Below are positions 14,785-44,314 of a stretch of 64,000 nucleotides of DNA, in pieces. The stretch's first letter is position 1. Every line of letters starts with the position of its first letter. Position numbers and translations under genes: made by a program. This DNA comes from Vibrio sp. 10N.286.49.B1 (GTDB lineage Bacteria > Pseudomonadota > Gammaproteobacteria > Enterobacterales > Vibrionaceae). Location: assembly GCF_002873335.1 (NCBI RefSeq), contig NZ_MCUW01000012.1, positions 248,001 through 312,000 of the forward strand. The letters are read 5' to 3'. The notes under the pieces are model-generated. The model was not told the DNA's origin and ran no database searches. It was given only the letters and a program-made list of their open reading frames with translations.

Positions 14785-16905
14785 TCAATAAAAATAGAGA
14801 TTATCGAGATAAACACTATCGCTAGTCGTTCCCCATAACGCCATACCTAATTGCGTCATTTTTGTTTTGTCATACTGGCTAACTGCGCCTAATGCATCAA
14901 ATGATAGTTCAACGGATATCCATTCCTCTGTGGTGATGTTTTCCATCATAAGCAACAGCGGACCACTTTCAGACAGTAACTGGAACTGAGCTTGCGTCAC
15001 GCCAGAAGTCGCATAAAAATCGAACCGCAGCCCTGTCATTTGCGATGCGTCAACTGGGCTGGCCGGTTCAACACCGTACTGAATACCTGTTGTTCCGCCC
15101 GCCACACCATCTGGCGTAATTTGGAATTTCGACGTTTGATTCCCCAAAATTGAGATCATTGAATGAACTGGCGGGTTCCACCACGCATCTGACCAATAAG
15201 TAACGTAGTGAGGGCTAGACAGTGAGTCACTAAATAGCGCAATGACATCTTCATTGGCAACCGTCGGTATAGGGGCTGCCATATTAGGCTGCGATGCCAA
15301 TGGAGTAAGCGAAAGCGTCAGGTCATTCACACTACCAATGACAGTGAGTACTTGTGTAATACCGTATCCATCCGCCAATGCTTTAATTTTTTGAGTACCT
15401 TGCGTTAACGTCAGAACTGCGATGCCGCTATCACTTGTTTTTACTGTATAGGGTTCATCAAAGTCACCACTAACGCCGACCAACACGTCAGCACTCGCTA
15501 AAGGAAGCCCTTGCTCATCCTTCACCAACACATTGATATCATATTGATTAGATGTGCCTGAAAAGTAAAAATTATCAACAAATATTGCTTTTGTTTCTGC
15601 TCCCCAAAGTTGAATGCCTGCCATCTGCAATTGTGCCGTGTTCAACGCTGCATTACCGTTAAGCGTCATATCTGAAAATGGAATCGCAAGCGACAACCAT
15701 TGTCCTGTCTGAGGATTATCCAATGCGTATGTTGCCGAACCATCCGTCGAAACTAATTGCAGCACCACCTTGCTAATACCTGATTCTATGTAGAGATCAA
15801 CATTCCACGTATCATGATGTGATACATCAACGCTGCCGTATTCAATACCAAATTGAATACCTGTCACGCCACCTTGGGAGCCTTCTCCTACAATTTCATA
15901 ACGTGCGTAATGGTCACCATTCATGCTTTCTTCAGAGTAAAATGGCGCATTCCACCAGTTCTCATTCCAGAGTGAGACAAATTTGTCTTCATTTAGGCTG
16001 TCGCTATAAATTGAAAAAACATCAGCATCAGAAACAGTCGGGGTTGGCGCAGAAACCGATGGTTCACTCTTTTGTACGGTTTTATTTATCAACGAAATAT
16101 CACTGATTAACACTGATGCCTCTACCTCACTAGGGAAGGTTAAAGCAAACCAACGAAGTTGAGTCGTAGCAGGTATCGCCACTTCAAACTGCTTCCAACC
16201 ATCCGCCAATGCCGTGCCAGAACTGGTAAGTAGAGTAATACTAAAATTAGGAATATTGAAGCCTTGAACATGGACTTCAACCTTCTCAAATCCATTGGAT
16301 TTTAAGTTAAAACGTGCGTAATTATACATCGAGGCATCAATGCTATTTGCTTGCTCATTGCCCCAAGCAATACCCGCGCCTTTGCCCCAATTAGTCCCAC
16401 TACTTAATTCAAGTACTTTACTAAAGTTTTCATCAACGACTTGGTTCGAAATTGTCGCCCCCGAACCCCAATCATCCCCCCAAAACTCCATATAATAGGA
16501 GTCATCGTGCTCTGAGTGGAACACATACATTTCTTCTGGTACAGGCTCATCAACATCTTGTTCTAGAGCTATTGAAACCGTCTGGTCACTTTCTCCAAGT
16601 TCGACTGATTTTTGTTCAGAGACATACCCCGACTTTGTCGCTAATACGATGTAAGTACCTGGCTCCAAATCATAATAAGCAGAGCCTTGAGCGTTAGTCG
16701 TCCTTGATTCACCTGAAATCATCAATGACACACCGTTGATCGGCACCTGACTGTTAGCGTCGGTTAATTGTAAGGTTAATCGCTGTGTTGTTTCTTCTTG
16801 CGGTGGTGTTGTTCCACTTGGGCCGCTCTCCGTTCCGTCACCTCCACCGCCACAACCGAACAATATTGTGCATAACAGCATCGCGCCTAATTTTTTCCAC
16901 ATCAT
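14785..16905 (-). CDS. multi-domain glycan-binding lipoprotein (no catalytic domain)
   Basis: 706 residues. Lipobox LFGC with the lipidated cysteine at residue 18 and a Gly-rich linker. Then come a carboxypeptidase-regulatory/CnaB-like domain (about 43-112), a beta-sandwich CBM-like domain (126-275), a second of the ExoP galactose-binding type (294-448), another CnaB-like domain (455-533) and a third CBM-like domain (552-706). The second and third CBM-like domains are clear duplicates (SDSL-x-WWN-P, GIQ-GxE, WG, VDNxYF). No glycosidase motif occurs. It is last in the GH17-GH16 gene series (28 bp after GH16), so a surface laminarin-capturing role is inferred. Confidence 0.78.
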   Translation of the reverse strand: MMWKKLGAMLLCTILFGCGGGGDGTESGPSGTTPPQEETTQRLTLQLTDANSQVPINGVSLMISGESRTTNAQGSAYYDLEPGTYIVLATKSGYVSEQKSVELGESDQTVSIALEQDVDEPVPEEMYVFHSEHDDSYYMEFWGDDWGSGATISNQVVDENFSKVLELSSGTNWGKGAGIAWGNEQANSIDASMYNYARFNLKSNGFEKVEVHVQGFNIPNFSITLLTSSGTALADGWKQFEVAIPATTQLRWFALTFPSEVEASVLISDISLINKTVQKSEPSVSAPTPTVSDADVFSIYSDSLNEDKFVSLWNENWWNAPFYSEESMNGDHYARYEIVGEGSQGGVTGIQFGIEYGSVDVSHHDTWNVDLYIESGISKVVLQLVSTDGSATYALDNPQTGQWLSLAIPFSDMTLNGNAALNTAQLQMAGIQLWGAETKAIFVDNFYFSGTSNQYDINVLVKDEQGLPLASADVLVGVSGDFDEPYTVKTSDSGIAVLTLTQGTQKIKALADGYGITQVLTVIGSVNDLTLSLTPLASQPNMAAPIPTVANEDVIALFSDSLSSPHYVTYWSDAWWNPPVHSMISILGNQTSKFQITPDGVAGGTTGIQYGVEPASPVDASQMTGLRFDFYATSGVTQAQFQLLSESGPLLLMMENITTEEWISVELSFDALGAVSQYDKTKMTQLGMALWGTTSDSVYLDNLYFY

Positions 16906-16933
16906 ACTCGAGTTCCTTCTAATTACATTTAAA

Positions 16934-18232
16934 TTAACGACGACGCTGCCTTAGTAAGGCACATCCAAATAGGCTTAATAAAATGAATAAACCGCTGCTT
17001 CCACCCGATGAGTCAGACGAACCATGAGGCGTCGGCTCAATATCTCCAGCGGTCATCACTTGGAATTCAATGTCATCTTGATCAAACAATGCTGAATTTG
17101 AGTTGTGGCGAAGCGCCACTTCGACACGGTAAGTCCCATCGGTCATTGAAGATGGGTCAAAAACGAGGGTGTTATAGCGAGTTTCAGGGCTAGGAAGTGT
17201 TTGAGACTGCCAAATGAGGGAATAGTCTTCTTCTGTACCATCCGCTAACTCAAGGTTTGCAATTAACGTCACTATGCCGTTTTCTGGGTCAACAAGAGAC
17301 GTTGCTTTGCCATCTTGTTGCATCGTCAAGTGAACATTCGGAAGGGAAGAGTCTGGCGATGTATTATCCGAGACCGGTGTTTGCTCATTACAATATTCAG
17401 CGCTACTGGTTTCACTCTTTTGGCAATGAGCAACGTAATCGATTTCCAACTTGGCGGTGCTTAAATCAGGGTCGATATTTCCACCTAGGTTGCCACCCAT
17501 TGCCAGGTTGAGTAACACAAACATGGGTTCCTTATATTGCGGGCACTGACTGACATCGTGAGCGGCAACTAAGGTATCGTTCACAAAGAAACGAATATCG
17601 TCATGTGTCCACTCCATCGCATATTGGTGCCATTCTTTGACTTGTAGCCGGCCATTAGGGTAAGGGTAGCGGACTTCATGGCCGCAACCATTCGCATTGT
17701 AGAAATTGGTAATGTAAACGTCTGGCTGATTAGCAAACCACTCCCACACATCAATTTCTCCCGCACCGGCCAAGGGCCAGTTCACACTATCGCCATCGCC
17801 TTTAATCGGTTGTTCGAAAATACGATTTTCCAACATCCAGAAAGCCGGCCACGTCCCAGCTTCTAGATTGTGAAATCGAATTCGAGCTTCCACACGGCCG
17901 TATAAAAACTCCTGCTTATCTTTGGTGTTGATGCGACCAGAAGTCCACGTCCGTTGCTGCCCACCAAGCGTCATACAATTATGGGTTTTCTTGCGTGAAA
18001 TGATCTTCAGGGTACCGTCTGATACTTCGTAATTTCGCAAATCAGAATAATCATCGGAGGTATAACATTGTACCTCGTTGTTATAGTTGGCTTTGGTTTG
18101 TGGTGTCCATGTGCTCCAATCCACCCCATTTCCATCGAATCGGTCAATCCATTGAACCTCCCACCCGGCGTAAGCAGGCTGAGCGAACCCCATCATTATT
18201 CCCGCCAGTAATATCATTCTGTACAACATCAT
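16934..18232 (-). CDS. GH16 endo-beta-1,3-glucanase with GlyGly-CTERM tail
   Basis: 432 residues from the chosen ATG. The order is a cleaved signal peptide (ending PAYA), then a GH16 domain with catalytic motif GEIDVWEW, whose two glutamates are about residues 159 and 164. An Ig-like region follows (about 300-400), then a C-terminal GGSSGLFILLSL plus LRQRRR tail. That tail matches GlyGly-CTERM sorting signals, which are handled by rhombosortase in bacteria with type II secretion. The predicted action is cutting laminarin outside the cell, with the enzyme held at the surface. A TTG start at 18253 is possible, but GAGG lies only five bases before the first ATG pair. Confidence 0.9.
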   Translation of the reverse strand: MMLYRMILLAGIMMGFAQPAYAGWEVQWIDRFDGNGVDWSTWTPQTKANYNNEVQCYTSDDYSDLRNYEVSDGTLKIISRKKTHNCMTLGGQQRTWTSGRINTKDKQEFLYGRVEARIRFHNLEAGTWPAFWMLENRIFEQPIKGDGDSVNWPLAGAGEIDVWEWFANQPDVYITNFYNANGCGHEVRYPYPNGRLQVKEWHQYAMEWTHDDIRFFVNDTLVAAHDVSQCPQYKEPMFVLLNLAMGGNLGGNIDPDLSTAKLEIDYVAHCQKSETSSAEYCNEQTPVSDNTSPDSSLPNVHLTMQQDGKATSLVDPENGIVTLIANLELADGTEEDYSLIWQSQTLPSPETRYNTLVFDPSSMTDGTYRVEVALRHNSNSALFDQDDIEFQVMTAGDIEPTPHGSSDSSGGSSGLFILLSLFGCALLRQRRR

Positions 18233-18309
18233 CGCCTCAACTTTTTCAGACAAAGTTCACCCGCACGATGGCAAATCGCCCTCATGGAAATAAACAATAT
18301 TAGATAGCG

Positions 18310-18335
18310 GCGATAGCCAAGGATTCAGCTATCGC
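18310..18335. repeat. inverted repeat between GH17 and GH16 genes
   Basis: GCGATAGC and GCTATCGC with a 10-base loop in the short gap between two co-directional glucanase genes. No T run follows, so it more likely affects mRNA processing or stability than termination. Confidence 0.5.
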
Positions 18336-18377
18336 ACATTTGAACGCGCCCTTCAGCGCATGAAAGAATCGCCTACG

Positions 18378-20291
18378 CTACTCTAACCAAGAGATATTCC
18401 TGATTTCTATATCGCTACGAGTCGGTGCACTACCACCAGATTCTGAATAGACATCTCCAATAGTAAACGGAGAGTTAACAACGCTTAGATCAGCATTGGC
18501 TGCATTAGAGAAGTCGCTAAGGTCAATCGTATATTTGACCCAGTCCGTTGTCAGGGTGTAACCCTGTCCAGCGTTAAATCTTACCCAGTGATTCGACCCA
18601 CCAGAAGCCGTTGTTTGGTAGCCCAAATCAAACCCGAATCGAGCCAAGACACTTTCTCCGCCGTCAACGCCACGGATCTCAAACGTCATTTTCGTTGACT
18701 GGGTTAAGTTACTGGTCTGGTTGTTAGTGCCAACACCAGCGCCCCACCCCCAATCTTTCGCCGTTGCCGGGTTAGCCGCGATAGTCAATACACCAGTGTC
18801 AGCATCCACCCCCGCCCATGCCGTGGCTGGATTATCCCAACCATAGGCAATAGCACCGTCATAAAGAACGCTTCCTAATACTCTAAACTCGCCATCTTGT
18901 GGCGGCGCCGTCACTGGCGCATACGGGGGAGGCAGCACCGAATCCATCAACGTCAGTTCATCCCCACCAAAACTGGCACTAAATGAAGACACAGCGCCAC
19001 GGGTCAACCCAAGATCATTGAGCGTATCAACCTTATCCCATGCCAAGTACTTGACGTTGCCATCAATATCAATCAATCCAAAATGTTTTTCAGAGTGGGT
19101 TGGATTGTTTGCATCACCTTTCCAAGGCTCATCAAATGCTTGGAAATAGAACAGAGACGCACCAAATTCATTGGTAAAATCGCGCATATCGTCATAGAAG
19201 ATTTTCTGTTTATATTCATCCGCCGCTTGTGTTCCGCCAGCGCCAAACATTTCTGAAGACACGGAAGACCAACCCGTTTCCCCTATGTGAATAGGCAGGC
19301 TTGAATCAATGTTATGAACGAAAGTTTGCACGTCGGCAAATTGATCGAGGGTACGGTCAAACGCTTTATCCATTGACGCATCGATTTGCTCTTTCAGCGT
19401 TGAACTCTGAAGGCTTTCTGGGACTTTCCATTGTTCAGAGAATGTTGGATCATAATAGGTGTCGTGGTGGGCATAAGAGTGCATTGATACATAATCAACG
19501 GTTTCTATTAAGGCCTTTAGGTTCGCTTGATCACCAGTATTACCGCTTGGATCCGTACCCGCCCACACCGCATAGTTGTCCGAAGAGGTAACCCAGATAC
19601 GAGAGGTACTTTGATCATCAAATTTCCAGCTTTGTAAATCCGTCACATGATCCAAAATAATTTTAGGCACCACATGGTACTCAGCCCAGTTGACCATTGC
19701 TTCATTACCCACAGCAATCACTTTGACAATTTCCGGATAGGCTAACGCCAGCTCTTTCGCTTTTGCTATTTCCAACGCATTTTTAGGGCTTTCTTGGTCA
19801 TGAATGACCGGCTGATCGGTCCAAGAGTTTAGCGCTTCAATCCAAACCCCCAACATTACATACATTTCAAAGCTGCTGTCTTCGGCTTTCAACTCACTAA
19901 TCGCTTGTAAGAGATTTTCTGTATTACTCTTACCATCTAACCCGATAAAACCTCGCGTGTTATACGTTCGCAGCACCTTAATTCCCATTGCTGCCAAAAT
20001 TTTCATGTCTTCTTTTTGTTGGTCGACAGTGGGCACGTTGGCACCGGACTCACGAACCGTCGTGCGCCATGCTCCATAAGATATAGCAAGATAATCAGGG
20101 TTACCCAATAAAGCATCACCGTTAGCCGCGGTAGGTTGAATAAGCGGGATTGGCTGAGGAGTTAACTCCGTAGAATCAGACCCACCTCCACCGGGCGTTG
20201 AAGGCGTGGCGGTGAGTTGTTCATCGCCACATCCCGACATCGCAAGCGTTAAACCGACTAGCATTGCTGCTTTTAAACTGCATTTTTTCAT
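18378..20291 (-). CDS. GH17-type beta-1,3-glucanase lipoprotein with C-terminal CBM-like domain
   Basis: 637 residues from the chosen start. Lipobox AMSGC, a Pro/Thr linker, then a (beta/alpha)8 domain of the GH17 kind. It has LRTYNTRGF, the acid/base glutamate (about 197) in AVGNEA and the nucleophile (about 338) in HIGETGWSS, with FYFQAFDEPWK closing the barrel. Residues about 465-637 form a beta-sandwich CBM-like domain. It should hydrolyse laminarin or transfer glucosyl units at the cell surface. AAGGAAG precedes the ATG at 20291; an upstream start at 20309 would spoil the signal. A terminator lies just before it, so expression may depend on read-through. Confidence 0.87.
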   Translation of the reverse strand: MKKCSLKAAMLVGLTLAMSGCGDEQLTATPSTPGGGGSDSTELTPQPIPLIQPTAANGDALLGNPDYLAISYGAWRTTVRESGANVPTVDQQKEDMKILAAMGIKVLRTYNTRGFIGLDGKSNTENLLQAISELKAEDSSFEMYVMLGVWIEALNSWTDQPVIHDQESPKNALEIAKAKELALAYPEIVKVIAVGNEAMVNWAEYHVVPKIILDHVTDLQSWKFDDQSTSRIWVTSSDNYAVWAGTDPSGNTGDQANLKALIETVDYVSMHSYAHHDTYYDPTFSEQWKVPESLQSSTLKEQIDASMDKAFDRTLDQFADVQTFVHNIDSSLPIHIGETGWSSVSSEMFGAGGTQAADEYKQKIFYDDMRDFTNEFGASLFYFQAFDEPWKGDANNPTHSEKHFGLIDIDGNVKYLAWDKVDTLNDLGLTRGAVSSFSASFGGDELTLMDSVLPPPYAPVTAPPQDGEFRVLGSVLYDGAIAYGWDNPATAWAGVDADTGVLTIAANPATAKDWGWGAGVGTNNQTSNLTQSTKMTFEIRGVDGGESVLARFGFDLGYQTTASGGSNHWVRFNAGQGYTLTTDWVKYTIDLSDFSNAANADLSVVNSPFTIGDVYSESGGSAPTRSDIEIRNISWLE

Positions 20292-20350
20292 TGCTTCTTC
20301 CTTGCACACTTTTATTTTTATGTCTATCGCGACTCATTCCATCAATTAAA

Positions 20351-20382
20351 AAGGCCCCTAGAACATCAGCTCCAGAGACCTT
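20351..20382 (-). terminator. intrinsic terminator between binding-protein gene and GH17 gene
   Basis: On the minus strand a 14-bp stem with several G-T pairs and loop TGAT is followed by TTTTTAATT. It sits 9 bases after the 752-residue lipoprotein gene and about 60 bases before the GH17 start. It probably ends most transcripts and lets some through. Confidence 0.75.
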
Positions 20383-20391
20383 AAGGCAGTA

Positions 20392-22650
20392 TTAATTTGC
20401 AGTGATAGAAACGTTATCGAAATACGCCGTCACTTCGCATCCTGCGACCGCGCCACACACCGGCTGTAGCAGCATAGAGACGCCCCATTCAACATCAGAT
20501 CCAGTAGTCACATCGAAGCTATGACTTACCCAATCATCGGTAGGCATAATAGATAGTAATGGGTCTGTCTTAGAAACCCCTGCCGATCCTTCGGAGAACA
20601 GTAGTGCATTAACAACGCCTCCATCACTCGCCGAGCCCTTCAAATCAAAAGATACAGTTAAACTTTGACCAGCCGTGATCACGCCTTCTCCAATTCGATC
20701 TTGTTTAATGAATGGGTTTTGCGCCTCCGGTGCGACTAACTTGGCCAAATACGTTCCACCGGTATCTTGTTCAACAGTCATATGCGCGCCTTCCACCGCC
20801 CAGCCTTCAAAACTGCCCAGTTCAAACCCACCATTCACGACTAAACCCGTATCACCAATATCCCCTACACCGTCAGTCGGCCCGTCCGGCACGGCTGGCA
20901 CATCCGGCTCTTGCGTGGCGCCAGTAGCGAAGAAATTGACGTTATCGATATGGAACACAGCACCATTGCCTGTTCCCCATGCTGGAAATACCATCACCAA
21001 GTCTATGGCACTTAGATTCACGCCTTGTTTGGCGAAATCTGCCAGATTGAAGCTAAAGTGCTGCCAATCGGACGTCGGGGCACTAGGCAAATCAACCTCA
21101 AGCGGTACACCTTCTACACTTTCAATTTTTAACTTCCAGGCTGCGGCGCCATCCGTTGGCGGAGTCACGAGTTTAAGGTCAAGCTCTAATGTCCCTGTCT
21201 CTGCAAGCGCGCTTGCGTCATAAGGCACACCATCCACTGCGGTATGGCCAGTATCTTGAGCATCGCTTCGAGTCGTAAATCCGAGTACGGTTGCACCCAC
21301 TACTTCAAATTTCGTGACGTTACCGTATTCGCCATCCTCAACAATAGAAGGGGTTGTGCCACCACAGCAGTCCCACGCCGCCCATTTAGGGTTGGCTAAA
21401 TCAGAATAAATGGTAAAAGCAAGTGTCTTTTCATCGACAGGCGGTTCCACAGGCGGCTCTACGGGTGGCGTCACTTCATCATCCGCCTCAACAAACGTCA
21501 CATCATCCCAATAGAAAGTTTTGTCTTCATTGGCATCAACTAAGAAATCAAAGAAAATCGATTTTTTGTCAAAAATGTCGCTGTCATTAATTGAGCCGCT
21601 ATTTAAGTCGGTAAAATCAAACGTCAGTTTTTCCCAAGATTGTGCAACCGTGGTATGCACTAATACTTCTGCAAACTGACTATCATCGGCTTGATTTTCG
21701 ACCTTAAGTAAAACTGGCACGCTCGTTTCTGGTGAATAAACCCACACGGATACTTTGCTACGATCAGCATTCAAGTTCAGGCGAGTCGTGTCACCCAGCG
21801 TTGTACCCGCCCAATCTTCAGCAGACGCCGGTTTGTCGGTTTTAATCACGGTATTATTACTACTTGCGGGCGCGACATCGGTATAGATTGGATTGGTTGC
21901 ATTTAGTACTGTCGTCGCTCCACCAAAATCTATCATCGCACTTGTGATGTCTAATTTATCACCGGCATCGGCGTCAGGGTTTGGTTGCGGATCCGTTGGG
22001 GTCGAGGAATTACCATCTGAGGTAAACTCAACATTATCGACACGATACACAGCGCCAGCCCCCTCTCCCCATTTAGGGAATATAAGAACGTTGTCAATGC
22101 TCGACAGATCCAAGCCGCTATTAGCAAGGTCAGCGAGTGTGACGGTGACATGCTGCCAGTTTTCTGTTGGTGTAGTCAGCTCAACCTCAACCGCTTCACC
22201 TTGATTGCCATTTTCTGGCCCACCATTACTTTCTAGTTTCACCGCCCAAGTTGTCTCTCCAGGGCTGGTCATCAGCTTGATATCAAACTCTAGCGTACCC
22301 TCTAGTTCATAAGCACTCGCATCTAACGCGCCACGAGATTCAGCTCGAACAAAACCCAATACTGCGGGTGTATCCCCTACTCGAAACTCGGTTACCGTTC
22401 CATACTCATTTAGTTCTTCTGGATTAGTAGGCGTTGTCCCGCCACAGCAATCCCATGTCGGCCAATAGCTATTTAGCGAGTCTTTAAACACAACGAAATC
22501 GTTACCGGTTTCTGGTACTTCAGGTACATCTGGTGTTTGAGGGTTTTCATTCACCGCCAAACTATCATCCCCACAACCCACCATTGCCGCTGACAACGCT
22601 GCCACAAGTGCAACATTCGCCAGTTTAAAACTTCTATTTGATGTTCTCAT
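20392..22650 (-). CDS. four-domain CBM-only surface glycan-binding lipoprotein
   Basis: 752 residues. Lipobox MVGC (cysteine 26). Four beta-sandwich domains are joined by Pro/Asp/Thr linkers: A (51-210), B (232-388), C (410-575) and D (601-752). A and C are duplicates, each starting with a W-x-x-WDCCGGTTP motif and ending VDNVxF. D opens VVNGGFELGSFEGW like CBM4/9 domains. There is no catalytic domain. The gene is first in the glucan locus, is preceded by palindromic operator sites and is followed by its own terminator. By analogy with SusE/SusF-like proteins it would hold laminarin at the cell surface; this is inference. Confidence 0.8.
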   Translation of the reverse strand: MRTSNRSFKLANVALVAALSAAMVGCGDDSLAVNENPQTPDVPEVPETGNDFVVFKDSLNSYWPTWDCCGGTTPTNPEELNEYGTVTEFRVGDTPAVLGFVRAESRGALDASAYELEGTLEFDIKLMTSPGETTWAVKLESNGGPENGNQGEAVEVELTTPTENWQHVTVTLADLANSGLDLSSIDNVLIFPKWGEGAGAVYRVDNVEFTSDGNSSTPTDPQPNPDADAGDKLDITSAMIDFGGATTVLNATNPIYTDVAPASSNNTVIKTDKPASAEDWAGTTLGDTTRLNLNADRSKVSVWVYSPETSVPVLLKVENQADDSQFAEVLVHTTVAQSWEKLTFDFTDLNSGSINDSDIFDKKSIFFDFLVDANEDKTFYWDDVTFVEADDEVTPPVEPPVEPPVDEKTLAFTIYSDLANPKWAAWDCCGGTTPSIVEDGEYGNVTKFEVVGATVLGFTTRSDAQDTGHTAVDGVPYDASALAETGTLELDLKLVTPPTDGAAAWKLKIESVEGVPLEVDLPSAPTSDWQHFSFNLADFAKQGVNLSAIDLVMVFPAWGTGNGAVFHIDNVNFFATGATQEPDVPAVPDGPTDGVGDIGDTGLVVNGGFELGSFEGWAVEGAHMTVEQDTGGTYLAKLVAPEAQNPFIKQDRIGEGVITAGQSLTVSFDLKGSASDGGVVNALLFSEGSAGVSKTDPLLSIMPTDDWVSHSFDVTTGSDVEWGVSMLLQPVCGAVAGCEVTAYFDNVSITAN

Positions 22651-22710
22651 TCCACATATCCTTGGTAGTCAATAACGTCATGTTTACGTGCTGCTAATCT
22701 ACACCACAAT

Positions 22711-22722
22711 GAAAGCGCTTTC
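22711..22722. promoter_or_regulatory. LacI-type operator, glucan locus 1, proximal
   Basis: Perfect 12-bp palindrome GAAAGCGCTTTC with a central CG, the form bound by many LacI-family repressors. It lies about 60 bases upstream of the 752-residue lipoprotein start, a position fit for repression. Confidence 0.7.
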
Positions 22723-22872
22723 TTTATGACTTATGAAGCCATTTAAGTTTTGCCTTCTCATTGCAAGTTTAAAATCCATTAAAAGCCTAATTACAACTTT
22801 AAATCCCCGTTATTCATACAGACGCGGCGCTAATCTTCTAGATTCACTAATAGTAGCTCACCTAACACAAAA

Positions 22873-22884
22873 GAAAGCGCTTTC
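22873..22884. promoter_or_regulatory. LacI-type operator, glucan locus 1, distal
   Basis: Second perfect GAAAGCGCTTTC, 162 bases from the proximal copy. Two spaced operators allow repression by looping. Confidence 0.68.
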
Positions 22885-23073
22885 CTAAGGGATCATAATA
22901 GCTCAGCTCTTTGAAAATTATTCTAGCCAACCTGACTTATAAAATCTGCCTTATCCGTTAAAAACGTGCATTAAACCATCATATATTGCTAATGAACGAT
23001 GAAAATCGTGAGCAAAATCGAAATTATCAATAATTGAATTAAAATGAATAACAATTGCACAAAAACCAGACTA

Positions 23074-23085
23074 GCAAGCGCTTTC
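23074..23085. promoter_or_regulatory. imperfect LacI-type operator
   Basis: GCAAGCGCTTTC, one mismatch from the perfect palindrome. It lies between the glucan locus and the methyltransferase gene, an auxiliary site at best. Confidence 0.5.
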
Positions 23086-25051: not shown

Positions 25052-25070
25052 CGTCTCGTGAACCGATTTG

Positions 25071-25110: not shown

Positions 25111-25167
25111 ACTAACTAACAGGTATCACGTGGCAATCATGACCACGTATATACGATCTAATCAGCC

Positions 25168-33346: not shown

Positions 33347-33355
33347 CTCTCAATA

Positions 33356-34378: not shown

Positions 34379-35467
34379 CTATCGCGCCTCAAAATCGATA
34401 CGCGGATCAACCCACATATACGTCAAATCAGAAATAATACTCAAGACTAAACCTAGTAACGTCATGATATACAAAGAACTAAATACAACGGGATAGTCTC
34501 GTTGAATGGTAGACTCAAAACCCAAAAGCCCGATCCCTTCCAAAGAGAACATCACTTCAATCAGCATAGAACCGGTAAAGAATATACTGATAAAGGCACT
34601 CGGAAATCCGGCGATAATAATTAACATGGCATTTCGAAACACATGCTTGTAAAGGATGTTGTTTTCGTCTAACCCCTTGGCACGCGCCGTCACCACATAC
34701 TGTTTGTTAATTTCATCTAAAAACGAGTTCTTTGTCAGCATACTCAAGGTGGCAAAACCGCCAATTACCATGGCCAGTATTGGCAGGGTTAAATGCCAAA
34801 AGTAATCAATGATCTGCTGATACCAAGTCAGCTGGTCAAAATTACTCGACACCAACCCGCGCAACGGGAACCAACTAAAATAATTACCGCTAGCAAACAA
34901 GATGATCAGAATAATGGCGAACAAGAATCCGGGAATCGCATAGCCAATGATAATCATCGCACTCGACCAGATATCGAAACGAGAGCCATGATGGATTGCT
35001 TTGAATATCCCTAGAGGAATAGAGATAAGATAGATGATCAATGTGCTCCACAGACCCAGAGAGATCGAGACCGGTAGCCGTTCCTTGATCAGGTCTATGA
35101 CATTACCACCTCGAAACAAACTTTCGCCAAAATTAAACATGGCGTAATTCTTGAGCATGTCGAAGTAACGTTCATGGATAGGTTTATCAAAGCCAAACTG
35201 TTTTCGAATGGCTTCCACGACCTCAGGATCAAGCCCACGAGAGCCCTTATAACCCGTTGATACATCATCTGAGCTCGTATCGAGCTCTACTTCTTTTCCA
35301 CCACCGCTAAAACGCTCCATCACACCGGAGTTAAGCCCTTGCATTTGAGCAATCGCTTGCTCAACAGGACCACCAGGTGCAACCTGAATGATAAAGAAGT
35401 TAATGGTAATAATTGCCCAAAGTGTTGGGATGACCAGCAATAATCGCCGGAATATATAAGCCGCCAT
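34379..35467 (-). CDS. yejB: YejB-type ABC transporter permease
   Basis: 362 residues. It begins [22 protein letters not shown] like oligopeptide permeases and has the YejB-style insert [14 protein letters not shown]. The EAA loop is [23 protein letters not shown], and about six membrane helices are seen. Inner-membrane partner of YejE. Start 9 bases after yejA. Confidence 0.92.
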
Positions 35468-35476
35468 TAATCCCTC

Positions 35477-37312: not shown

Positions 37313-37332
37313 CCCTTTCTCCCTAAAATAGA

Positions 37333-37358
37333 AAAAGGGCGTCTTGAGGCGTCCTTTT
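37333..37358 (-). terminator. hairpin terminator after the GGDEF gene
   Basis: AAAAGG-GCGTC, loop TTGA, GGCGT-CCTTTT with two G-T pairs. On the minus strand it is followed by more T. It separates the diguanylate cyclase gene from yejA. Confidence 0.7.
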
Positions 37359-37469
37359 CCTAGTAATCTGACAATTATTTAAATTTGCTTATACTGTTAT
37401 AAATAGCTGTATTTGACAGGGTTTTCAAGGGTTCGAGGGGATTGTTGGAATAATTAACGTTAAAGTTTG

Positions 37470-38438
37470 CTACAACCCAGCCATGCTGCTGGATTCTTGT
37501 TCGCATAAGTCACAAGTGAGGATACCCGGAGCATCTGAGCAATAAACATGGACACGCCCACTGCAGCCTTTTTTGGAGACATAAAGCGCTTTATCTGCTC
37601 GCTCAATAATACTACCTTCTCGCGCTGAGTGGGTGGCAACACCGATTGAACAAGACACACTAAACTTCTTGCCACTGCTACTGGTAAAGGTCAATGCCTC
37701 GATCTTTTTAGCAAGGCGAGACGCCAACGAATACGCTTTTTGAATATGACCACCGGGTAAAATCAACACAAACTCGTCACCACCGTAACGACACAATAAA
37801 TCTTCTTCTCGAGTACTTCGATTGATCGTCTTCACGATATCGACCAACACTCGATCACCAATCGAATGACCATACTTGTCATTAATCGGCTTAAAGCGGT
37901 CAACATCAATAATGAGCACCGAGTACTGAGTCCCGTCTTCTATGTACCTATTGTGTTGCTCTTCTAGTGCTAAGTGCAAATATCGACGGTTATAACACCC
38001 AGTCAAACCATCAGTATTAGCTTCTTCGAGCAGTATCTGCCTTTCTTCCATATCTTTGGATATATCGACCGCGAATCCAATAACACCAAGCACCTTACCA
38101 TTTTTGACTATCGGTGAAGAGACCATAAGGTGATACAACTCTTGCCCATCAATGGCAAAAGGGATTTTATGCTGTGTCGGTTTACTGGTCGTAATGACTC
38201 GCTTGTCGCTGGCTCTCATCAACTTAGCGGTATTATAGTCAAACAGCTGCCAATCCGACTTGCCACGAATACCGTCTAATCCAACGCCAAACGTCTCGAC
38301 CGCTTTTTTATTCACGTACTGGTAATGCCCATTGCTATCTTTAATAAATATATACGCGTCAACAGCGTCAAAGACTTCTGATAAGCCTAATAACTCCTCT
38401 GGTGAACCTTGGTGAGTTGATAGTATGAGCTCTAGCAT
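37470..38438 (-). CDS. PAS-GGDEF diguanylate cyclase
   Basis: 322 residues. A PAS domain (about 22-130: DAYIFIKDSNGHYQYVNKKA, VIGFAVDISKDM) and a GGDEF domain (about 135-300) with intact active-site motif RYGGDEF. A product-inhibition I-site of RxxD form (REED) lies five residues before it. It should make cyclic di-GMP in the cytoplasm in response to a small ligand or redox cue. No membrane segment. A Cys-rich tail (LTCDLCEQES) is unusual and might bind metal with C-x-x-C. Monocistronic by the flanking terminators. Confidence 0.92.
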   Translation of the reverse strand: MLELILSTHQGSPEELLGLSEVFDAVDAYIFIKDSNGHYQYVNKKAVETFGVGLDGIRGKSDWQLFDYNTAKLMRASDKRVITTSKPTQHKIPFAIDGQELYHLMVSSPIVKNGKVLGVIGFAVDISKDMEERQILLEEANTDGLTGCYNRRYLHLALEEQHNRYIEDGTQYSVLIIDVDRFKPINDKYGHSIGDRVLVDIVKTINRSTREEDLLCRYGGDEFVLILPGGHIQKAYSLASRLAKKIEALTFTSSSGKKFSVSCSIGVATHSAREGSIIERADKALYVSKKGCSGRVHVYCSDAPGILTCDLCEQESSSMAGL

Positions 38439-38585
38439 ATACTCGCTTTTATAAATGCATGGTGTTGAATATATTGAATGCTAGAGTTTAAACCCTAGTT
38501 TGTAATTTTTCCTGTATAAACGCAGGTTTACTAAAGCGAAAGTTTAGTTTTGATATGTAGACCACATTTTTTGAATTAAGATCAC

Positions 38586-38612
38586 AAAAAGGCCACTAAA
38601 TGCAGCCTTTTT
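38586..38612 (-). terminator. intrinsic terminator after the LamB-type porin gene
   Basis: On the minus strand AAAAAGGCTGC, loop ATTTA, GTGGCCTTTTT with G-T pairs allowed. It lies about 50 bases after the porin stop. Confidence 0.8.
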
Positions 38613-38663
38613 GATTGTTTTTTAGACAGTGTAAAGCGCTATTTTCGGCGCACTTTTCCTACA

Positions 38664-40016
38664 TTACCACCAAACATCAGCCTGGAAACCCACAATAAAA
38701 TCTTTATCCGCATTGCCTTGCCCATCCAAATTTGTCCATGATTCTGGTAAATACGTGGCCAGCAACCTGATTTCCGGTGCGACACCCAATGAGGTGGGTA
38801 GAATGAACGTAGGGGCAATGGTGAATTTAGACTGTTTCCACGAGTTACCATTCCAATTGTTATAAACATAGCCTACTTCACCTTGCATATAGAAGTGCTG
38901 ACTGACTGGAATGGTTGGTCTAACCATCGCCGACGCCCAGTAATTATAACCGCCTTCAGTACGAGCATCACCGGTAGCCATATCATTGTATTGCGCTTGT
39001 ATTGAAGGGAATAAACTCACCCCGTTTTCAAAGGTATACCCACCCCACATTAAAACGCGAGCCGAGGTATCGTCATCCTCTAATTGAGTGACTAAGTATG
39101 ATGCTTCTCCTGCTGGTCCCCAGTCATTATGTTGACCCTGCGCGAGTGAGCCAGGATGATAAGCGTTGTAGTCCGTAATGGTTCCACCAAGTAAGTTTCC
39201 GGCTCCCAATCCTTTACCACCTTGTACAATGATTTTTGAAAAGCCATTACCAGGAATCGCAAAGAAGCTATTAAGGTTATAAGTTGCGGTCAGGTCGTAA
39301 CCTGTTTCTGCCCATTCTTTGCCTTGAACATCCCAGTTATCTGGCATGGCTTTAAGCAAGGCGGACAATTTTAGATTGCCGAAAGTAGATGAAATATTTA
39401 AAGCATGCATAAGGTTGTTTAGGTTAGTCGCATTGTTGCCGATTTCCGCAGGTGCCGTCGCCCAGCGATCAACATCTTCATTGACCCGGTCACTCGCGAT
39501 ATAGGCTAAATCGACCATCGAATCACCTAATTCGTAGCCTTGAATGCCAATACCCGTACCAGACATATCGGTGTAGAAAAAGTCCGTCATGAAGATGTAG
39601 TTATCCGCCTTGCCGTACTCCCTTCGACCAGCCCAAAATGTGCCCGATGGCGTAATACCGTTAAGTTCGATAAACGCATTGGAAATACCCGCATCAATCG
39701 CATCCGAGCTTGACGTTAACGCAGATTCCTTCCCAGACTTGCCAATCCCAAAGTGAATTTTGAAACTTCGATCATCTTCAAACGCCCATGTACTTGCGAA
39801 GTTGGCTTTGTAATCATTGTCGGCTTCAATCCCTAGACGCCCCAATGTTTCCTTTTGCCCTGCATAGTTAGAACGTTTAAAGTCGTTCTCGGCACTGGTA
39901 ATCACCCCCGTTCGAAAATAACCGTGAAATTCAAATCCTTCTGTTTCTTGTGCGAAAACCCCAGACTGCATGCTTAATGCGGCGACAACACCTAATGCTA
40001 ATTTTGATACTTTCAT
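38664..40016 (-). CDS. LamB-type (maltoporin family) carbohydrate porin
   Basis: 450 residues. Signal peptide ending GVFAQ, then a LamB-family barrel. It shows FEFHGYFRTGV at the start, ETLGRLGIEADNDYKANF, FWAGRREYGKADNYIFMTDFFYTDMSGTGIGIQ in the greasy-slide/L3 region and a terminal FIVGFQADVWW with aromatic end. It should let oligosaccharides diffuse through the outer membrane. Its operator matches those of the laminarin locus rather than a maltose system, so laminari-oligosaccharides are the inferred cargo. It is downstream of a GH16 gene and has its own terminator. Confidence 0.9.
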   Translation of the reverse strand: MKVSKLALGVVAALSMQSGVFAQETEGFEFHGYFRTGVITSAENDFKRSNYAGQKETLGRLGIEADNDYKANFASTWAFEDDRSFKIHFGIGKSGKESALTSSSDAIDAGISNAFIELNGITPSGTFWAGRREYGKADNYIFMTDFFYTDMSGTGIGIQGYELGDSMVDLAYIASDRVNEDVDRWATAPAEIGNNATNLNNLMHALNISSTFGNLKLSALLKAMPDNWDVQGKEWAETGYDLTATYNLNSFFAIPGNGFSKIIVQGGKGLGAGNLLGGTITDYNAYHPGSLAQGQHNDWGPAGEASYLVTQLEDDDTSARVLMWGGYTFENGVSLFPSIQAQYNDMATGDARTEGGYNYWASAMVRPTIPVSQHFYMQGEVGYVYNNWNGNSWKQSKFTIAPTFILPTSLGVAPEIRLLATYLPESWTNLDGQGNADKDFIVGFQADVWW

Positions 40017-40039
40017 GTAAATGTAACTCCATTTATTTT

Positions 40040-40051
40040 GTAAGCGCTTTC
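40040..40051. promoter_or_regulatory. LacI-type operator upstream of LamB-type porin
   Basis: GTAAGCGCTTTC followed by TTTAG, 24 bases upstream of the porin start. Seventeen bases including flank are the same as the site at 42894, supporting one regulator. Confidence 0.65.
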
Positions 40052-40157
40052 TTTAGAGTTGCTAGTAATGTTGTTAAAACGCTCTACCACTGCTATGTAA
40101 AACTAACCAAATATCATTTTGTAAGTTCGTAATGTACCCAAAGCAATTTCAATCTCA

Positions 40158-41723
40158 CTATCGAACGAGTCGAATGTTATCTAATTGCACAGTAAGTGAT
40201 GCTTGAGGCTCCAATACGAGGATGTTCTTTATTTTAGAAAGGTCGACAGTGCTGCCTTTAGAGAAACGGTTACCGTTGCTGACAATCTCCGACAGTGGGA
40301 TTCGGATTTCCTGCCAACCTGTGGCAGCACTTAGCGGCACCTCATAATCTCCGGCGAGAGGCCAACCACTGTCCATTTTAATCAGTAACTGAGAGTCTTC
40401 TTTAATATCAACGGTCTTCATGTCAAACACCAATTCACCGTCGCTTGCCCATCCACTTAAATCCAACTCAGGAGTAATGAAATACGCATTGCCCACCTTA
40501 CCTTTCTTTGTGAGTTCAATGACTTTTCCACGCCCAGGTTCATCAAGGTATGTAACACTGACTCTCCCATCAGGATCGTATCCACTCGCGACAAGGTGTT
40601 TATTGAGTGCATCATCAAAAATGGTCAGTTCTTTGCCTTTGCCATAATCTTTATCGGCAATAATAATAGCGGGGGCGGCGTTACCTTTTACTAACTTTGC
40701 TTCTGGTGAGACCGTTGCACAACCTTTGCCAGTTTCTCTATCAAGGCTGCATTCAAAGACTCGTACATAATCCACGGCAAGTGTCTGTGGAAAGATATCG
40801 CTATCAATTCCGCCTTCATTTCGATTTGCAGACCAAGACCCACCCACCGCTAGGTTTAACAACAGATGAAAACGTTCATTGAAAGGGGCACTTTCATCGG
40901 CGGTCATCAATGTGCCATTCTTTTTATATTGGCTGTACCACCCTTCTTTTCGTTGTGTAGCAAAGTGATGGTTATCTACATACCATCGAATTTCGCCTTC
41001 CTCCCATTCAACGGCGTAAGTATGGAAGCCATCCGCTGGGTTAATATTATCTGGTAGGTGGTAATCGGTTCCGGAGCTGACATTTTCTGGCCACTGACGA
41101 CCATAATGTAAGGTGCCATAGACCCGGCTTTCTAATTCACCCTTTGGCGCATCTTCGATATCCGTTTGAACTTGCAGGTTTACGGCCTCCATGATGTCGA
41201 TTTCGCCAGACGCCGCCCATGTTCCATACTTCTGGTCTGTCGGCAGCATCCAAATCGCTGGCCAAGTCCCTTGACCGTGTGGCAACATCGCTCGAATTTC
41301 GAAGCGACCATACTTCCAGTCACCTTTATTCAGAGTGCGTAAACGCGCCGAAGTAAACGGCAGCGTCGCTTTCGAACGCATGTCTCCGGTATTATTATTA
41401 GCGCCAGTAAAACTGCCTTCTTTTGCGACAATATGGAGCACACCATTGTCGACGAAAGAGTTTACGCTGCGCTTGGTGTAACACTGCTGTTCATTATTGC
41501 CGCCGCCCCAACAGTTCTCTTCATGACTCCATTTAGATTTATCAATTTCATCGCCTTGAAATTCATCATTCCAAATCATGGTCCAAACCGGATCTGGGCT
41601 CCCTGTTGGATCATTGAGTTGCTCTTGTGTAAATGCGATAGGCTCACTGGTCGACGTACAACCGACCAAAGCCAGCACTACGGCGGATGAGAGGATGGAA
41701 CGAGTCGATACTTTCGTATTCAT
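40158..41723 (-). CDS. GH16 beta-1,3-glucanase lipoprotein with CBM-like domain
   Basis: 521 residues. Lipobox ALVGC (C22). The GH16 domain (about 45-325) has catalytic motif GEIDIMEA (glutamates 174 and 179), the HGQGTWPAIWMLP strand and NLAVGGSW, as in bacterial laminarinases. A C-terminal beta-sandwich (about 375-521, ending VQLDNIRLV) resembles the ExoP-type carbohydrate-binding domains found in locus 1. Outer-membrane anchored; cuts laminarin close to the porin. AGGGAA precedes the ATG. It differs from the GH16 of locus 1 in having no GlyGly-CTERM tail. Confidence 0.92.
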   Translation of the reverse strand: MNTKVSTRSILSSAVVLALVGCTSTSEPIAFTQEQLNDPTGSPDPVWTMIWNDEFQGDEIDKSKWSHEENCWGGGNNEQQCYTKRSVNSFVDNGVLHIVAKEGSFTGANNNTGDMRSKATLPFTSARLRTLNKGDWKYGRFEIRAMLPHGQGTWPAIWMLPTDQKYGTWAASGEIDIMEAVNLQVQTDIEDAPKGELESRVYGTLHYGRQWPENVSSGTDYHLPDNINPADGFHTYAVEWEEGEIRWYVDNHHFATQRKEGWYSQYKKNGTLMTADESAPFNERFHLLLNLAVGGSWSANRNEGGIDSDIFPQTLAVDYVRVFECSLDRETGKGCATVSPEAKLVKGNAAPAIIIADKDYGKGKELTIFDDALNKHLVASGYDPDGRVSVTYLDEPGRGKVIELTKKGKVGNAYFITPELDLSGWASDGELVFDMKTVDIKEDSQLLIKMDSGWPLAGDYEVPLSAATGWQEIRIPLSEIVSNGNRFSKGSTVDLSKIKNILVLEPQASLTVQLDNIRLVR

Positions 41724-41835
41724 ATTATTTTATTCCCTGTACAACTGTACCCTCTCTAAAAATACGAAAAGAGTCAGTCTGAACTTGTGATATAAATAGC
41801 TTGCGATTAAATGTGTGTTCTTCGGTTTATTGAGG

Positions 41836-42675
41836 TTATGGTTTTAGTTTTACTGACATGGTGAATATGCCTTTTGCAATATCAGGGTTCGCGGCTTTAT
41901 TAGTGAATGCCAATGCTTTTTCTAAATCTCCACGCTCCACCAATTCGATGATCTCTACACCAAAGTTGTCCCGCTCTTTTTGCGTTAGGTTTCGCTTATA
42001 GCGCTCTAACGAATCCAGGGTATTGGCTTTTATGGTCGGACTTGCCACGACTGCATTTGGTGCGCTTTTTTCCATTGAAAGCGTTAATGTGCCAATAGCG
42101 CTATGGACACCAAATGGCTCCATCATGTATTTTTGTAGTGCCATCGTTTGCCCAGTCTCTGCCATTGCTGAAACATCGGCTTTGCGCGGAGTCGACTCTC
42201 CCAACAACTGGAAGTCTGTATAGATAATGAGGTATCGAGGCGACGGTTCATGGTCAAAGGAGAGAGTAAGTCGGTATCGCTCTGGATGAAAGGCTGTCTG
42301 TGATTCTCGGACGATATCTTGTGCGTCAGAGTTAAAGACAACCGTAAAGTTTTCGTCTAATAACTGCGCCTGTGGTACAAATAAATCCGCATCTATTTCT
42401 GAGTATATATTGAGTTTCCGTATATCCTGATGAGCCGAAATTTCAAGCGCAGATATGAATGATTTCCCTGTATCGAACATCAATGAAGGTGATCGGGAGG
42501 TTATCTCAATAGTCTGTTTCTTTTCATTAAGTAACGTTTGAAATTCAAGCGCTCTTATGGATTCACAACAAACGTTACTGTCAGACAAGGCGGCTAATCC
42601 ATAAGCATCAACCGCTGTTGACGACTGACTGCACCCTGTTATCAGCAATACCATTATCCATAACGAAAATCTCAT
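41836..42675 (-). CDS. MalM-like periplasmic lipoprotein
   Basis: 279 residues. Signal with lipobox LLITGC (C15). The body is a MalM-family pattern: paired strands, SLMFDTGKSFISALEI and YRLTLSFDHEPSPRYLIIYTD. The end is the MalM helix with the VERGDLEKALAFTNKAANPDI motif. MalM of Escherichia coli follows lamB in the maltose regulon and binds sugar weakly, but its role is unsettled. Here it precedes a GH16 gene and a LamB-type porin, so a glucan version of the LamB-MalM pair is inferred. AGGAGC precedes the ATG. Confidence 0.8.
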   Translation of the reverse strand: MRFSLWIMVLLITGCSQSSTAVDAYGLAALSDSNVCCESIRALEFQTLLNEKKQTIEITSRSPSLMFDTGKSFISALEISAHQDIRKLNIYSEIDADLFVPQAQLLDENFTVVFNSDAQDIVRESQTAFHPERYRLTLSFDHEPSPRYLIIYTDFQLLGESTPRKADVSAMAETGQTMALQKYMMEPFGVHSAIGTLTLSMEKSAPNAVVASPTIKANTLDSLERYKRNLTQKERDNFGVEIIELVERGDLEKALAFTNKAANPDIAKGIFTMSVKLKP

Positions 42676-42893
42676 TTTCTAGCTCCTAGTGTTCATCCGT
42701 GATACCGCGGCTCATCTAACACACGCTCGCCAGCAATCAACAGGCCATTGCTTCAAAAAAAATCGGGATAATTAAGTTCACATACCCCCATATGCTCCCT
42801 TCCCTAAACATCATCCCGACAAAAGCCCTTTCTTGACGAAGAATCCAACCGTCTCCAGCTATTGCGTAAGCTCTCTTTTCATAACACTAAAAA

Positions 42894-42905
42894 GTAAGCG
42901 CTTTC
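42894..42905. promoter_or_regulatory. LacI-type operator, glucan locus 2
   Basis: GTAAGCGCTTTC then TTTAG, about 219 bases upstream of the MalM-like gene start. It has the same 12-base sequence as the porin operator. Confidence 0.65.
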
Positions 42906-43075
42906 TTTAGGTTTCAAAAAAACTTGCTTTAAAAGATAAATACCAGCAACATTCTACGTGAAAACAATCATATTATTACCGTCTTTTGGTTGATTATAAG
43001 CGTAATAAAAAACTAGAGCTGTGTACACGTACAAAATACCGCCATATCGTAAACTTTGAGCACTATCACTATTAA

Positions 43076-43087
43076 GAAAGCGCTTAC
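43076..43087. promoter_or_regulatory. LacI-type operator, glucan locus 2, second copy
   Basis: GAAAGCGCTTAC, the reverse complement of the site at 42894. 182 bases separate the two start points, and the regulator gene starts about 220 bases to the right. Fits autoregulation and looping. Confidence 0.65.
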
Positions 43088-43305
43088 AAAAATAATTGAG
43101 CCTCCGGTCACTAAAATGATGCCTAGCGACAATAAGGGCAAATTGACCGCCTGCTTAGCTGCCTAGATCACATTTTTTCGTCTTAAGGAATTCAAGCTCG
43201 ACATCAATCCAATGAATAATGATGATTGTGTTGTATAATTAAATAACGTCATGTCTATGAAATCGTGAGTGATTTCAGCGAAATTGAAGCATAGGAATTG
43301 AAGAT

Positions 43306-44313
43306 TTGATTACAATAAAAGAAGTCGCTGAACTTGCTCAAGTCTCGCAAGCCACTGTATCAAGAACCTTAAATGGTCACGCTTCAGTGAAAGAAGCGAA
43401 CAAAACACGAGTGTATGCAGCCATAGAAGAACTTGGCTACAAGCCCAATGCTTTTGCTCAAGCACTGGCTTCTAATCGTTCGTGTAGTATAGGCATGTTG
43501 GTTGGTACGCTTGATGGCCCATTCTATGGACCTATGATGCATGAGGTTGAAAAAGTAGTAAGAAAAGAGAACTATCATCTCATTATTACTAGCGGACATG
43601 AGAAATACGATGAGGAGTTGGAATCCATTCGCTTCCTTCGTTCAAAAAAAGTGGATGGTCTCGTACTGACCGTCGACACACTTCCAGACAGTGAGTTACT
43701 CGATATTACCAAAGAAGTCGAAGCTACTGTGCTTATTAACCGATACATCCCAGAAATTTCGGACCGCTGCATCTGGATTGATAACGAGCGAGGGGGTTTT
43801 TTGGCGACGGAGCACCTCATTCAGCAAGGGCATAAACATATCGGTTGTGTCACAGGTCAATTAAGTAAAGTCGACAGTCGTGACCGCTTGCAGGGTTTTC
43901 GAAATGCATTGAATCAGTATGGGGTCGAATACAATCCTAATGCTGTCGTAGAAGGTCGATTTGACCACAAGTGCAATCAACAAGCTATCCGTCGTCTACT
44001 CGACCGAGATGTTCCGCTCACTGCTATTTTTTGCATGAATGATAACATCGCAATGACGGCTTACAGTTTGTGTGTTGAACGAGGTTTAACCATTGGCGAG
44101 GATATTTCCATTATCGGTTTCGATAATGTCTCGTTTGGTCAACACATGACACCAGGTCTCACTACCGTTGACTTTCCGATTCAACAGATGGCAAGCGAAG
44201 CAGCGAAAAAGGTCATGGCTATCGTTCAAGGAAAAGGCAATGCCAAGCACACCAGCGAACCGATTGTACCTAGCGTTATTGTAAGAGGTTCAGTGAAAGA
44301 TCTCACCGTCTGA
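43306..44313 (+). CDS. LacI-family regulator of the glucan regulon
   Basis: 335 residues. N-terminal LacI helix-turn-helix (TIKEVAELAQVSQATVSRTL) with the hinge helix region KPNAFAQAL, then a periplasmic-binding-like ligand domain (about 60-330: SIGMLVGTLDGPFYGPMM, CIWIDNERGGFLATEHLI, FCMNDNIAMTAY, SIIGFDNVSFG). TTG start with AGGAATTG upstream; no ATG would keep the DNA-binding helix. It is divergent from the MalM-GH16-porin genes. Its operators (GAAAGCGCTTTC type) also occur at glucan locus 1, so it is the best candidate for the regulator of both. The inducer is not shown by the sequence. Confidence 0.92.
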   Translation: MITIKEVAELAQVSQATVSRTLNGHASVKEANKTRVYAAIEELGYKPNAFAQALASNRSCSIGMLVGTLDGPFYGPMMHEVEKVVRKENYHLIITSGHEKYDEELESIRFLRSKKVDGLVLTVDTLPDSELLDITKEVEATVLINRYIPEISDRCIWIDNERGGFLATEHLIQQGHKHIGCVTGQLSKVDSRDRLQGFRNALNQYGVEYNPNAVVEGRFDHKCNQQAIRRLLDRDVPLTAIFCMNDNIAMTAYSLCVERGLTIGEDISIIGFDNVSFGQHMTPGLTTVDFPIQQMASEAAKKVMAIVQGKGNAKHTSEPIVPSVIVRGSVKDLTV

Positions 44314-44314
44314 A

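Follow-up and report, generated by a model that had tools for sequence, protein, structure and literature searches.

Laminarin, which vibrios degrade, is a major storage glucan of algae. Among the closest described systems are the Type I GH149 clusters of Proteobacteria, Vibrio included, in which GH149 is combined with an ATP-binding cassette (ABC) transport cassette and a LacI- or AraC-type regulator; these clusters were described as having neither an extracellular laminarinase nor an outer-membrane transporter, and scavenging of small oligosaccharides was suggested (PMC5827456). LacI-family local sugar regulons with even palindromes form a large known class (PMC4052901). Here, we analyzed 64,000 nucleotides of Vibrio sp. 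10N.286.49.B1 (C12:248001-312000, called the window), in which two beta-1,3-glucan loci, locus A (14785-22650) and locus B (38664-44313), share a palindrome, GAAAGCGCTTTC, and a gene for a LacI-type regulator, lacI, stands at the end of locus B. An earlier note on this DNA had proposed that one palindrome and the adjoining regulator unite the two loci. This proposal is now supported by the specificity of the palindrome within the genome and by its conservation upstream of the regulator gene in four genera. A block for import and phosphorolysis has been deleted from locus B, and locus A was gained by transfer.

Palindromes at the two glucan loci

Pattern search of the window returned all six positions listed in the earlier note, 22711, 22873, 23074, 40040, 42894 and 43076 (Table 1). 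The claim that 23074 alone carries a mismatch did not hold: two sites are exact copies of GAAAGCGCTTTC and four are one base off. The unrelated genes between the loci do lack promoter sites, as had been stated; the single near match there, at 37582 (TAAAGCGCTTTA), lies within a GGDEF open reading frame (ORF) at 37470-38438. When up to two mismatches were allowed, the window gave 9 matches against 3.37 expected, a count that 3 of 100 shuffles reached, hence the loose pattern by itself is weakly enriched. A weight matrix trained solely on the sites of relatives (173 distinct ones, chosen with the same pattern, so that the fixed positions were imposed) gave the six sites scores of 20.4-29.4, and nothing else in the window scored above 7.4. 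The flank, which the selection did not impose, is A-rich in the relatives, with A at -2 in 81% and at -1 in 78% of the sites.

The genome is a draft of 5,149,300 bp in 89 contigs, from an assembly listed as 100% complete. The pattern GNAAGCGCTTNC was found in 11 places (4 for the reversed control), six of them being the sites described here. All of its intergenic occurrences (6/6) fall at the two glucan loci, and the other five lie inside ORFs, called mechanically at a length of at least 100 amino acids (aa). The random spread of the palindrome, which the earlier note had named as an argument to the contrary, was not seen. Uniform placement would put at least six of 11 places in these 1,371 intergenic bases with a probability of about 1.6e-19, or of about 5e-14 if all sites are forced into the 12% of the genome that is intergenic, for a pattern composed after the sites were seen. 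With up to two mismatches, the genome gave 286 matches, versus 221 for the reversed pattern. Among places with one or two mismatches on other contigs, five (L110, L111, L112, L113 and L116) were inspected as possible further members of the regulon and all lay within ORFs, the L111 place being less sure since the ORF set there consists of small overlapping ORFs. Weaker operators may occur elsewhere in the genome, only part of the 286 places having been inspected.

Searches of named genomes gave 38 regulator loci, 35 of which hold orthologs at 53-92% identity, from Vibrio, a Vibrionaceae metagenome-assembled genome, Photobacterium, Psychromonas and Marinomonas. The helix-turn-helix (HTH) of the regulator is conserved in these loci along with the operators. 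GNAAGCGCTTNC occurs in them 180 times in intergenic DNA (93,866 bp) versus 17 times in coding DNA (619,808 bp, 6.6 times longer), and the reversed pattern does not occur. A gene was counted as having a site when one lay no more than 500 bp before it, so that genes inside operons score as misses. By this count, sites precede lacI in 34 of 35 ortholog loci, the binding-protein gene of an oligopeptide-type ABC transporter in 29 of 30, LamB in 25 of 27, and the GH149 beta-1,3-glucan phosphorylase gene in 26 of 32. The fractions were 11/23 for GH16b-type genes, 6/14 for GH16a-type matches, 7/12 for MalM, 3/7 for GH17, and 2/2 for the locus-A lipoprotein type.

In 15 selected genomes that have the regulator, the exact palindrome was found 76 times (reversed, 5), versus twice in 5 genomes without it (reversed, 1), the latter defined by the lack of a match at E<=1e-90. 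In the 14 regulator genomes with a complete listing, 62 of 70 exact sites are no more than 25 kb away from lacI or GH149. Five of the remaining eight sit at three glucan loci: a GH161 phosphorylase gene of G220 (L162:6079-9402; PDB 9qqk, E=5.2e-240), a gene of 1,079 aa in G115 followed by a GPH symporter (L161:5998-9237, with one of its two sites within the gene), and a GH3 gene of V. gelatinilyticus (G004). The G115 gene is similar to the GH161 gene of G220, the PDB comparison being for the latter. The remote GH161 gene and its similar counterpart suggest that the regulator also governs a further beta-1,3-glucan branch.

The protein encoded at 43306-44313 is presumed to bind all six sites. 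As is usual for the LacI/GalR family, an even palindrome with a central CG stands at its own gene (42894 and 43076), and the position of site 43076 predicts autoregulation. None of the named NCBIfam regulator equivalogs reached its cut-off, the best being GalR with 261 bits versus 557. The closest orthologs come from V. methylphosphonaticus (G136; 92% identity) and V. qingdaonensis (G166; 91%). The operator pairs are spaced here by 162 and 182 bp; in the relatives the spacings cluster at 160-190 bp, and 32 of 52 are below 220 bp. A 10.5-bp phasing that would point to DNA looping was not significant over all unique spacings (P=0.13); P=0.007 was obtained only for the 120-200 bp range, which was picked afterwards.

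Loss of the phosphorylase block and gain of locus A

In V. methylphosphonaticus and V. qingdaonensis, a block of 10.7 kb separates lacI from secF. Synteny shows that it is gone here. As annotated in the corresponding named locus (L072), the block consists of a GH149 beta-1,3-glucan phosphorylase gene of 1,151 aa (PDB 6hq6; NCBIfam NF058639, 1,699.6 bits, cut-off 1,150) together with an oligopeptide-type ABC operon. The GH149 query matched nothing in this genome, versus matches in 19 of 19 other genomes of the same search. GH149 is present in 68 of 227 Vibrio genomes, including 62 of the 63 with a regulator at least 53% identical, the lone exception being the genome studied here. At a threshold of at least 50% the ratio is 64/66, with G013 as the second exception; GH149 also occurs in four genomes that have no regulator at 50%. 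The 62/63 co-occurrence together with the intact genes that remain favours a late loss of the block.

Two observations concern such losses. A perfect CAATAAG tandem repeat of 6.9 copies (44315-44362) directly follows the lacI stop codon; it could be a trace of the deletion or a phase-variable element. In G116 (C3:1396015-1399452) the GH149 gene has an in-frame stop, and in several other genomes the match falls into two pieces, hence the phosphorylase may be lost repeatedly.

No Type I ABC cassette (COG0747/0601/1173/0444/4608) was found in this genome. The best match to its binding protein is 38% identical and lies next to GH9 and BadF-type kinase genes in a cluster that we take to be of the chitobiose type; an ABC cassette between the two loci (31694-37312) was the fourth match, at 28% over part of the protein. 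Among the GH3 genes, one belongs to a xylan-type cluster with XylR, GH43 and an MFS symporter, and one on contig C10 lies two ORFs from a PhoD-like gene. No convincing replacement was found, the GH3 match on C15 not being examined and GH94, GH1, GH30 and GH161 not being searched. Elsewhere in this genome, an oligopeptide-type ABC cluster that includes a GH9 gene has as its neighbour a type I restriction system with an EcoAI-like R subunit and a Methylase_S protein (L124:13927-17530).

Locus A has a different history. It is 91.8% identical to its V. methylphosphonaticus counterpart over 7.9 kb, and 94-96% across much of it, versus 66-83% in the surrounding aligned blocks. The synonymous divergence (dS) from the same species is 0.14-0.59 for the four locus-A genes; for 11 surrounding genes, lacI and locus B included, it is 2.1, 2.3 or saturated. 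In V. qingdaonensis, locus A is missing at this place. Hence, locus A moved between species recently, which accounts for the split of the regulon into two loci. The promoter moved along with the module, for V. methylphosphonaticus has identical 12-mers at two of the three operators and a one-base variant at the remaining one. Homologs of the locus-A lipoprotein encoded at 20392-22650, some of which match only part of it, were found in 14 other Vibrio genomes (227 searched, E<=1e-40). The homolog shares a contig with a regulator ortholog and is within 20 kb of it in all 14.

The features of both loci are collected in Table 1. The gene identities given before (binding proteins, GH16, GH17, LamB-type porin and MalM-like protein) were borne out by Pfam and by PDB sequence matches, and the ORFs of both loci are all intact. 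The 14785-16905 protein is probably a surface glycan-binding protein. The MalM-like protein shares 38% identity with its V. methylphosphonaticus counterpart, versus 80-99% for nearby proteins, which may reflect fast evolution or replacement. Neither a TonB-dependent receptor nor SusD was present among the eight scanned proteins of both loci, to which this search was confined. In place of the MalT-type activator and alpha-glucan enzymes of a maltose regulon, there are a LacI-type regulator and GH16 and GH17 enzymes.

The genes between the loci, including a GGDEF gene and the ABC system mentioned above, which is presumably YejABEF-like (related Pfam and NCBIfam matches were obtained), keep their order in the relatives. 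An ORF in this stretch (29549-30781) encodes a secreted, internally repetitive, lipoprotein-like product with weak DUF matches only. Locus B adjoins a GGDEF gene in many relatives, and palindromes precede genes related to cyclic di-GMP (c-di-GMP), for a GGDEF protein in G115 (L164:10650-11007) and an EAL/GGDEF protein in G231 (L166:7481-7492). Glucan sensing could possibly be linked to attachment.

Table 1. Genes, predicted operators and the lacI/secF junction in the window.
Feature	Position	Strand	Basis and remarks
Locus A predicted lipoprotein, 706 aa, CarboxypepD_reg domains	14785..16905	-	Pfam PF13620; lipobox by pattern
Locus A GH16 beta-1,3-glucanase, 439 aa	16934..18253	-	PF00722; best PDB match 4bq1 (GH16 endo-1,3-beta-glucanase); EIDVWE motif
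Locus A GH17 lipoprotein, 643 aa	18378..20309	-	PDB 6fcg GH17, E=6.3e-108; lipobox; PF00332 28.1 bits, just below the 28.2 cut-off
Locus A lipoprotein, 752 aa, Exop_C and CBM_4_9	20392..22650	-	Pfam; lipobox; first gene after the sites
Predicted operator GAAAGCGCTTTC	22711..22722	.	61 bp before the 20392-22650 gene; matrix score 29.4; kept in V. methylphosphonaticus
Predicted operator GAAAGCGCTTTC	22873..22884	.	Score 25.3; V. methylphosphonaticus aligned position is the one-base variant GAAAGCGGTTTC
Predicted operator GCAAGCGCTTTC	23074..23085	.	One mismatch; score 20.4; V. methylphosphonaticus aligned position is the identical 12-mer
Locus B LamB-type porin, 450 aa	38664..40016	-	PF02264 227 bits; PDB maltoporins align over ~148 N-terminal residues
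Predicted operator GTAAGCGCTTTC	40040..40051	.	One mismatch; 24 bp before the porin gene; score 21.9; same 12-mer in V. qingdaonensis, one-base variant in V. methylphosphonaticus
Locus B GH16 laminarinase-like lipoprotein, 521 aa, C-terminal carbohydrate-binding-like domain	40158..41723	-	PF00722, PF18559; best PDB match 3iln laminarinase, E=1.6e-42; EIDIME motif; lipobox
Locus B MalM-like lipoprotein, 279 aa	41836..42675	-	PF07148 43.6 bits, cut-off 26; lipobox
Predicted operator GTAAGCGCTTTC	42894..42905	.	One mismatch; between the MalM-like gene and lacI; score 28.6; aligned position in V. methylphosphonaticus and V. qingdaonensis is exact GAAAGCGCTTTC
Predicted operator GAAAGCGCTTAC	43076..43087	.	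One mismatch; upstream of lacI; score 20.4; identical 12-mer in V. methylphosphonaticus and V. qingdaonensis
LacI-family regulator, 335 aa, TTG start	43306..44313	+	PF00356 64 bits and Peripla_BP_3 PF13377 114 bits, both above cut-off
lacI/secF junction	44314..44444	.	secF 131 bp after lacI; 7-bp tandem repeat 44315-44362; terminator-like hairpin seen by eye

Proposed regulation and competing explanations

The reading that we consider very probable is that the lacI product is the local repressor of a Vibrio laminarin regulon with GAAAGCGCTTTC operators, from which the ABC-GH149 block was deleted in this species and into which locus A was transferred. Binding, repression, the inducer, the substrate and the way in which products now enter the cell are what we infer beyond the computed results. 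The regulator would bind GAAAGCGCTTTC operators with A-rich flanks and let go once a laminarin-derived sugar reaches the cytoplasm. In the relatives, the operator would control the regulator itself, the LamB porins, the GH16 and GH17 laminarinases, the binding lipoproteins, the ABC importer and GH149, so that glucan would be cut outside and its fragments would pass through the porin, be imported and undergo phosphorolysis. In this species, the repressor would control the secreted and outer-membrane parts, the block between lacI and secF being deleted, and locus A, with its two binding lipoproteins, GH16, GH17 and its own operators, would plug into the resident regulator. The regulon membership proposed earlier stands as to the shared palindrome and the two loci; it is not complete by itself, being the reduced form of a wider regulon with a GH149 and ABC core.

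Several results weigh against this proposal. None of 19 GH3 genes and not all GH149 genes (6/32 lack one) have a site within 500 bp, although some such genes may sit inside operons. A LamB site is missing on both sides in 2 of 27 cases, and the Marinomonas ortholog (L106, 53%) has none upstream of lacI. Three of the eight remote exact sites lie away from glucan genes, one upstream of a c-di-GMP phosphodiesterase-like gene (G231) and two inside ORFs of G115. Consensus promoter scans gave 4 hits (shuffles 1.8) and 1 hit (shuffles 2.0), that is, no clear promoters. The AAAGCGCTTT core is shared with the AglR motif of Rhizobiales, an unrelated family member (PMC4052901), hence the motif on its own is not diagnostic. 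A further difficulty is the entry of the inducer in this species. LacI-family proteins bind cytoplasmic sugars, so with the ABC importer gone the inducer must come in by another way.

What is left of the system may be useful, through surface digestion with another uptake of glucose or disaccharides, or it may be decaying. If it were a decaying remnant, import and phosphorolysis would have been lost, laminarin would no longer be used, and sites and genes would persist because the loss was recent. The absence of the block and of GH149 fits this, and so does the divergence of the MalM-like protein from its G136 counterpart. On the other hand, no gene of either locus is broken, the recent gain of locus A fits continued use of beta-glucan, and LacI, LamB and GH16 are 92%, 92% and 85% identical to the G136 proteins despite saturated synonymous sites. 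The last point does not date the loss, since G136 kept the block. Altogether, we regard decay as rather unlikely.

We hold with similarly little confidence a broader view, in which laminarin use in Vibrio would be a plug-in regulon: outer modules with their own operators would move between species and join the resident repressor, and the inner core could be dropped. The strain studied would then be a regulated outside-only degrader that cuts glucan at the surface; small products would be taken up by another route or shared, and the repressor would be kept to sense them.

It is improbable that another LacI-type protein, or several with overlapping specificity, binds the palindrome and that the neighbouring gene controls locus B only. 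The description of the regulator gene as the only one of LacI type, correct for the window with its single LacI HTH match, fails for the genome, which has 17 such matches, and another member could share the motif. Similar AAAGCGCTTT cores were reported for other LacI regulators (PMC4052901), and some Vibrio have a second regulator copy nearby, as G004 with copies 70% and 57% identical. However, the nearest paralog in this genome (15 checked) is 38% identical and differs in the recognition helix. The sites also track the ortholog, being frequent in the 15 genomes with it and nearly absent from the 5 without (a small set), and precede its gene in all but one of the 35 loci.

Even less credence is given to the missing block being an assembly artefact. 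The genome is a draft in many contigs and was judged from the assembly rather than from reads, but lacI and secF lie within one 487-kb contig with conserved flanks, and GH149, which the same query detected in all 19 other genomes of that search, was found nowhere in an assembly rated complete. Finally, chance palindromes or a structural repeat without a regulatory role, for which the modest excess of two-mismatch matches in the window might speak, were rejected on the genome-wide placement and the conservation across genera, and are hardly conceivable.

Relation to known systems

No description of this operator or regulon was found in the open-access PubMed Central literature, regulon databases and supplements being beyond that scope. 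The GH149-ABC-LacI cluster and the class of LacI sugar regulons are known; this operator and its regulon appear to add a member to that class, set apart by an uncommon loss and an uncommon gain. A single operator that can be read by eye predicts the response genes across Vibrio and neighbouring genera, and in the relatives it already flags remote members, a GH161 phosphorylase and a GH3 enzyme. This species is a natural deletion that retains the operator and the surface components and has neither the importer nor the phosphorylase. It can be used to study which signal the repressor detects, and whether a strain of this kind provides food for itself or for the cells around it.

In the maltose regulon of E. 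coli, the regulator is MalT and the outer-membrane pair is LamB/MalM. A LamB-type porin gene and a MalM-like lipoprotein gene are likewise clustered here, with a LacI-type regulator and beta-1,3-glucanases. Studied Vibrio laminarinases (VvGH17 of V. vulnificus and the V. breoganii enzymes) belong to the same enzyme families and show the same GH16-GH17 adjacency; that paper is an enzyme study, the main text of which does not contain "gene cluster", "LacI" or "GH149" (PMC9026390). The beta-glucoside regulators CelR and AscG, the latter (3brq) among the PDB relatives of the regulator, share with it the LacI family and the beta-glucoside theme, but they are predicted to sense cellobiose-6P (PMC4052901), whereas the targets here are for beta-1,3-glucan, without a phosphotransferase system. 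The LacI-family local sugar regulons are alike in the even palindrome with a central CG, the autoregulatory site and the sugar catabolic targets; the main text of their survey contains no laminarin or glucan regulon, its supplements and RegPrecise lying outside that scope (PMC4052901).

The Type I GH149 cluster (PMC5827456) has the LacI-type regulator in common with this genome; with the relatives it also shares the GH149 phosphorylase and an oligopeptide-type ABC cassette of five parts. This genome differs in having the outer parts without the GH149-ABC core. In the relatives, the shared operator ties that core to LamB porins and GH16/GH17 lipoproteins, and so joins the published cluster to the outer-membrane and surface parts believed to be missing from it.

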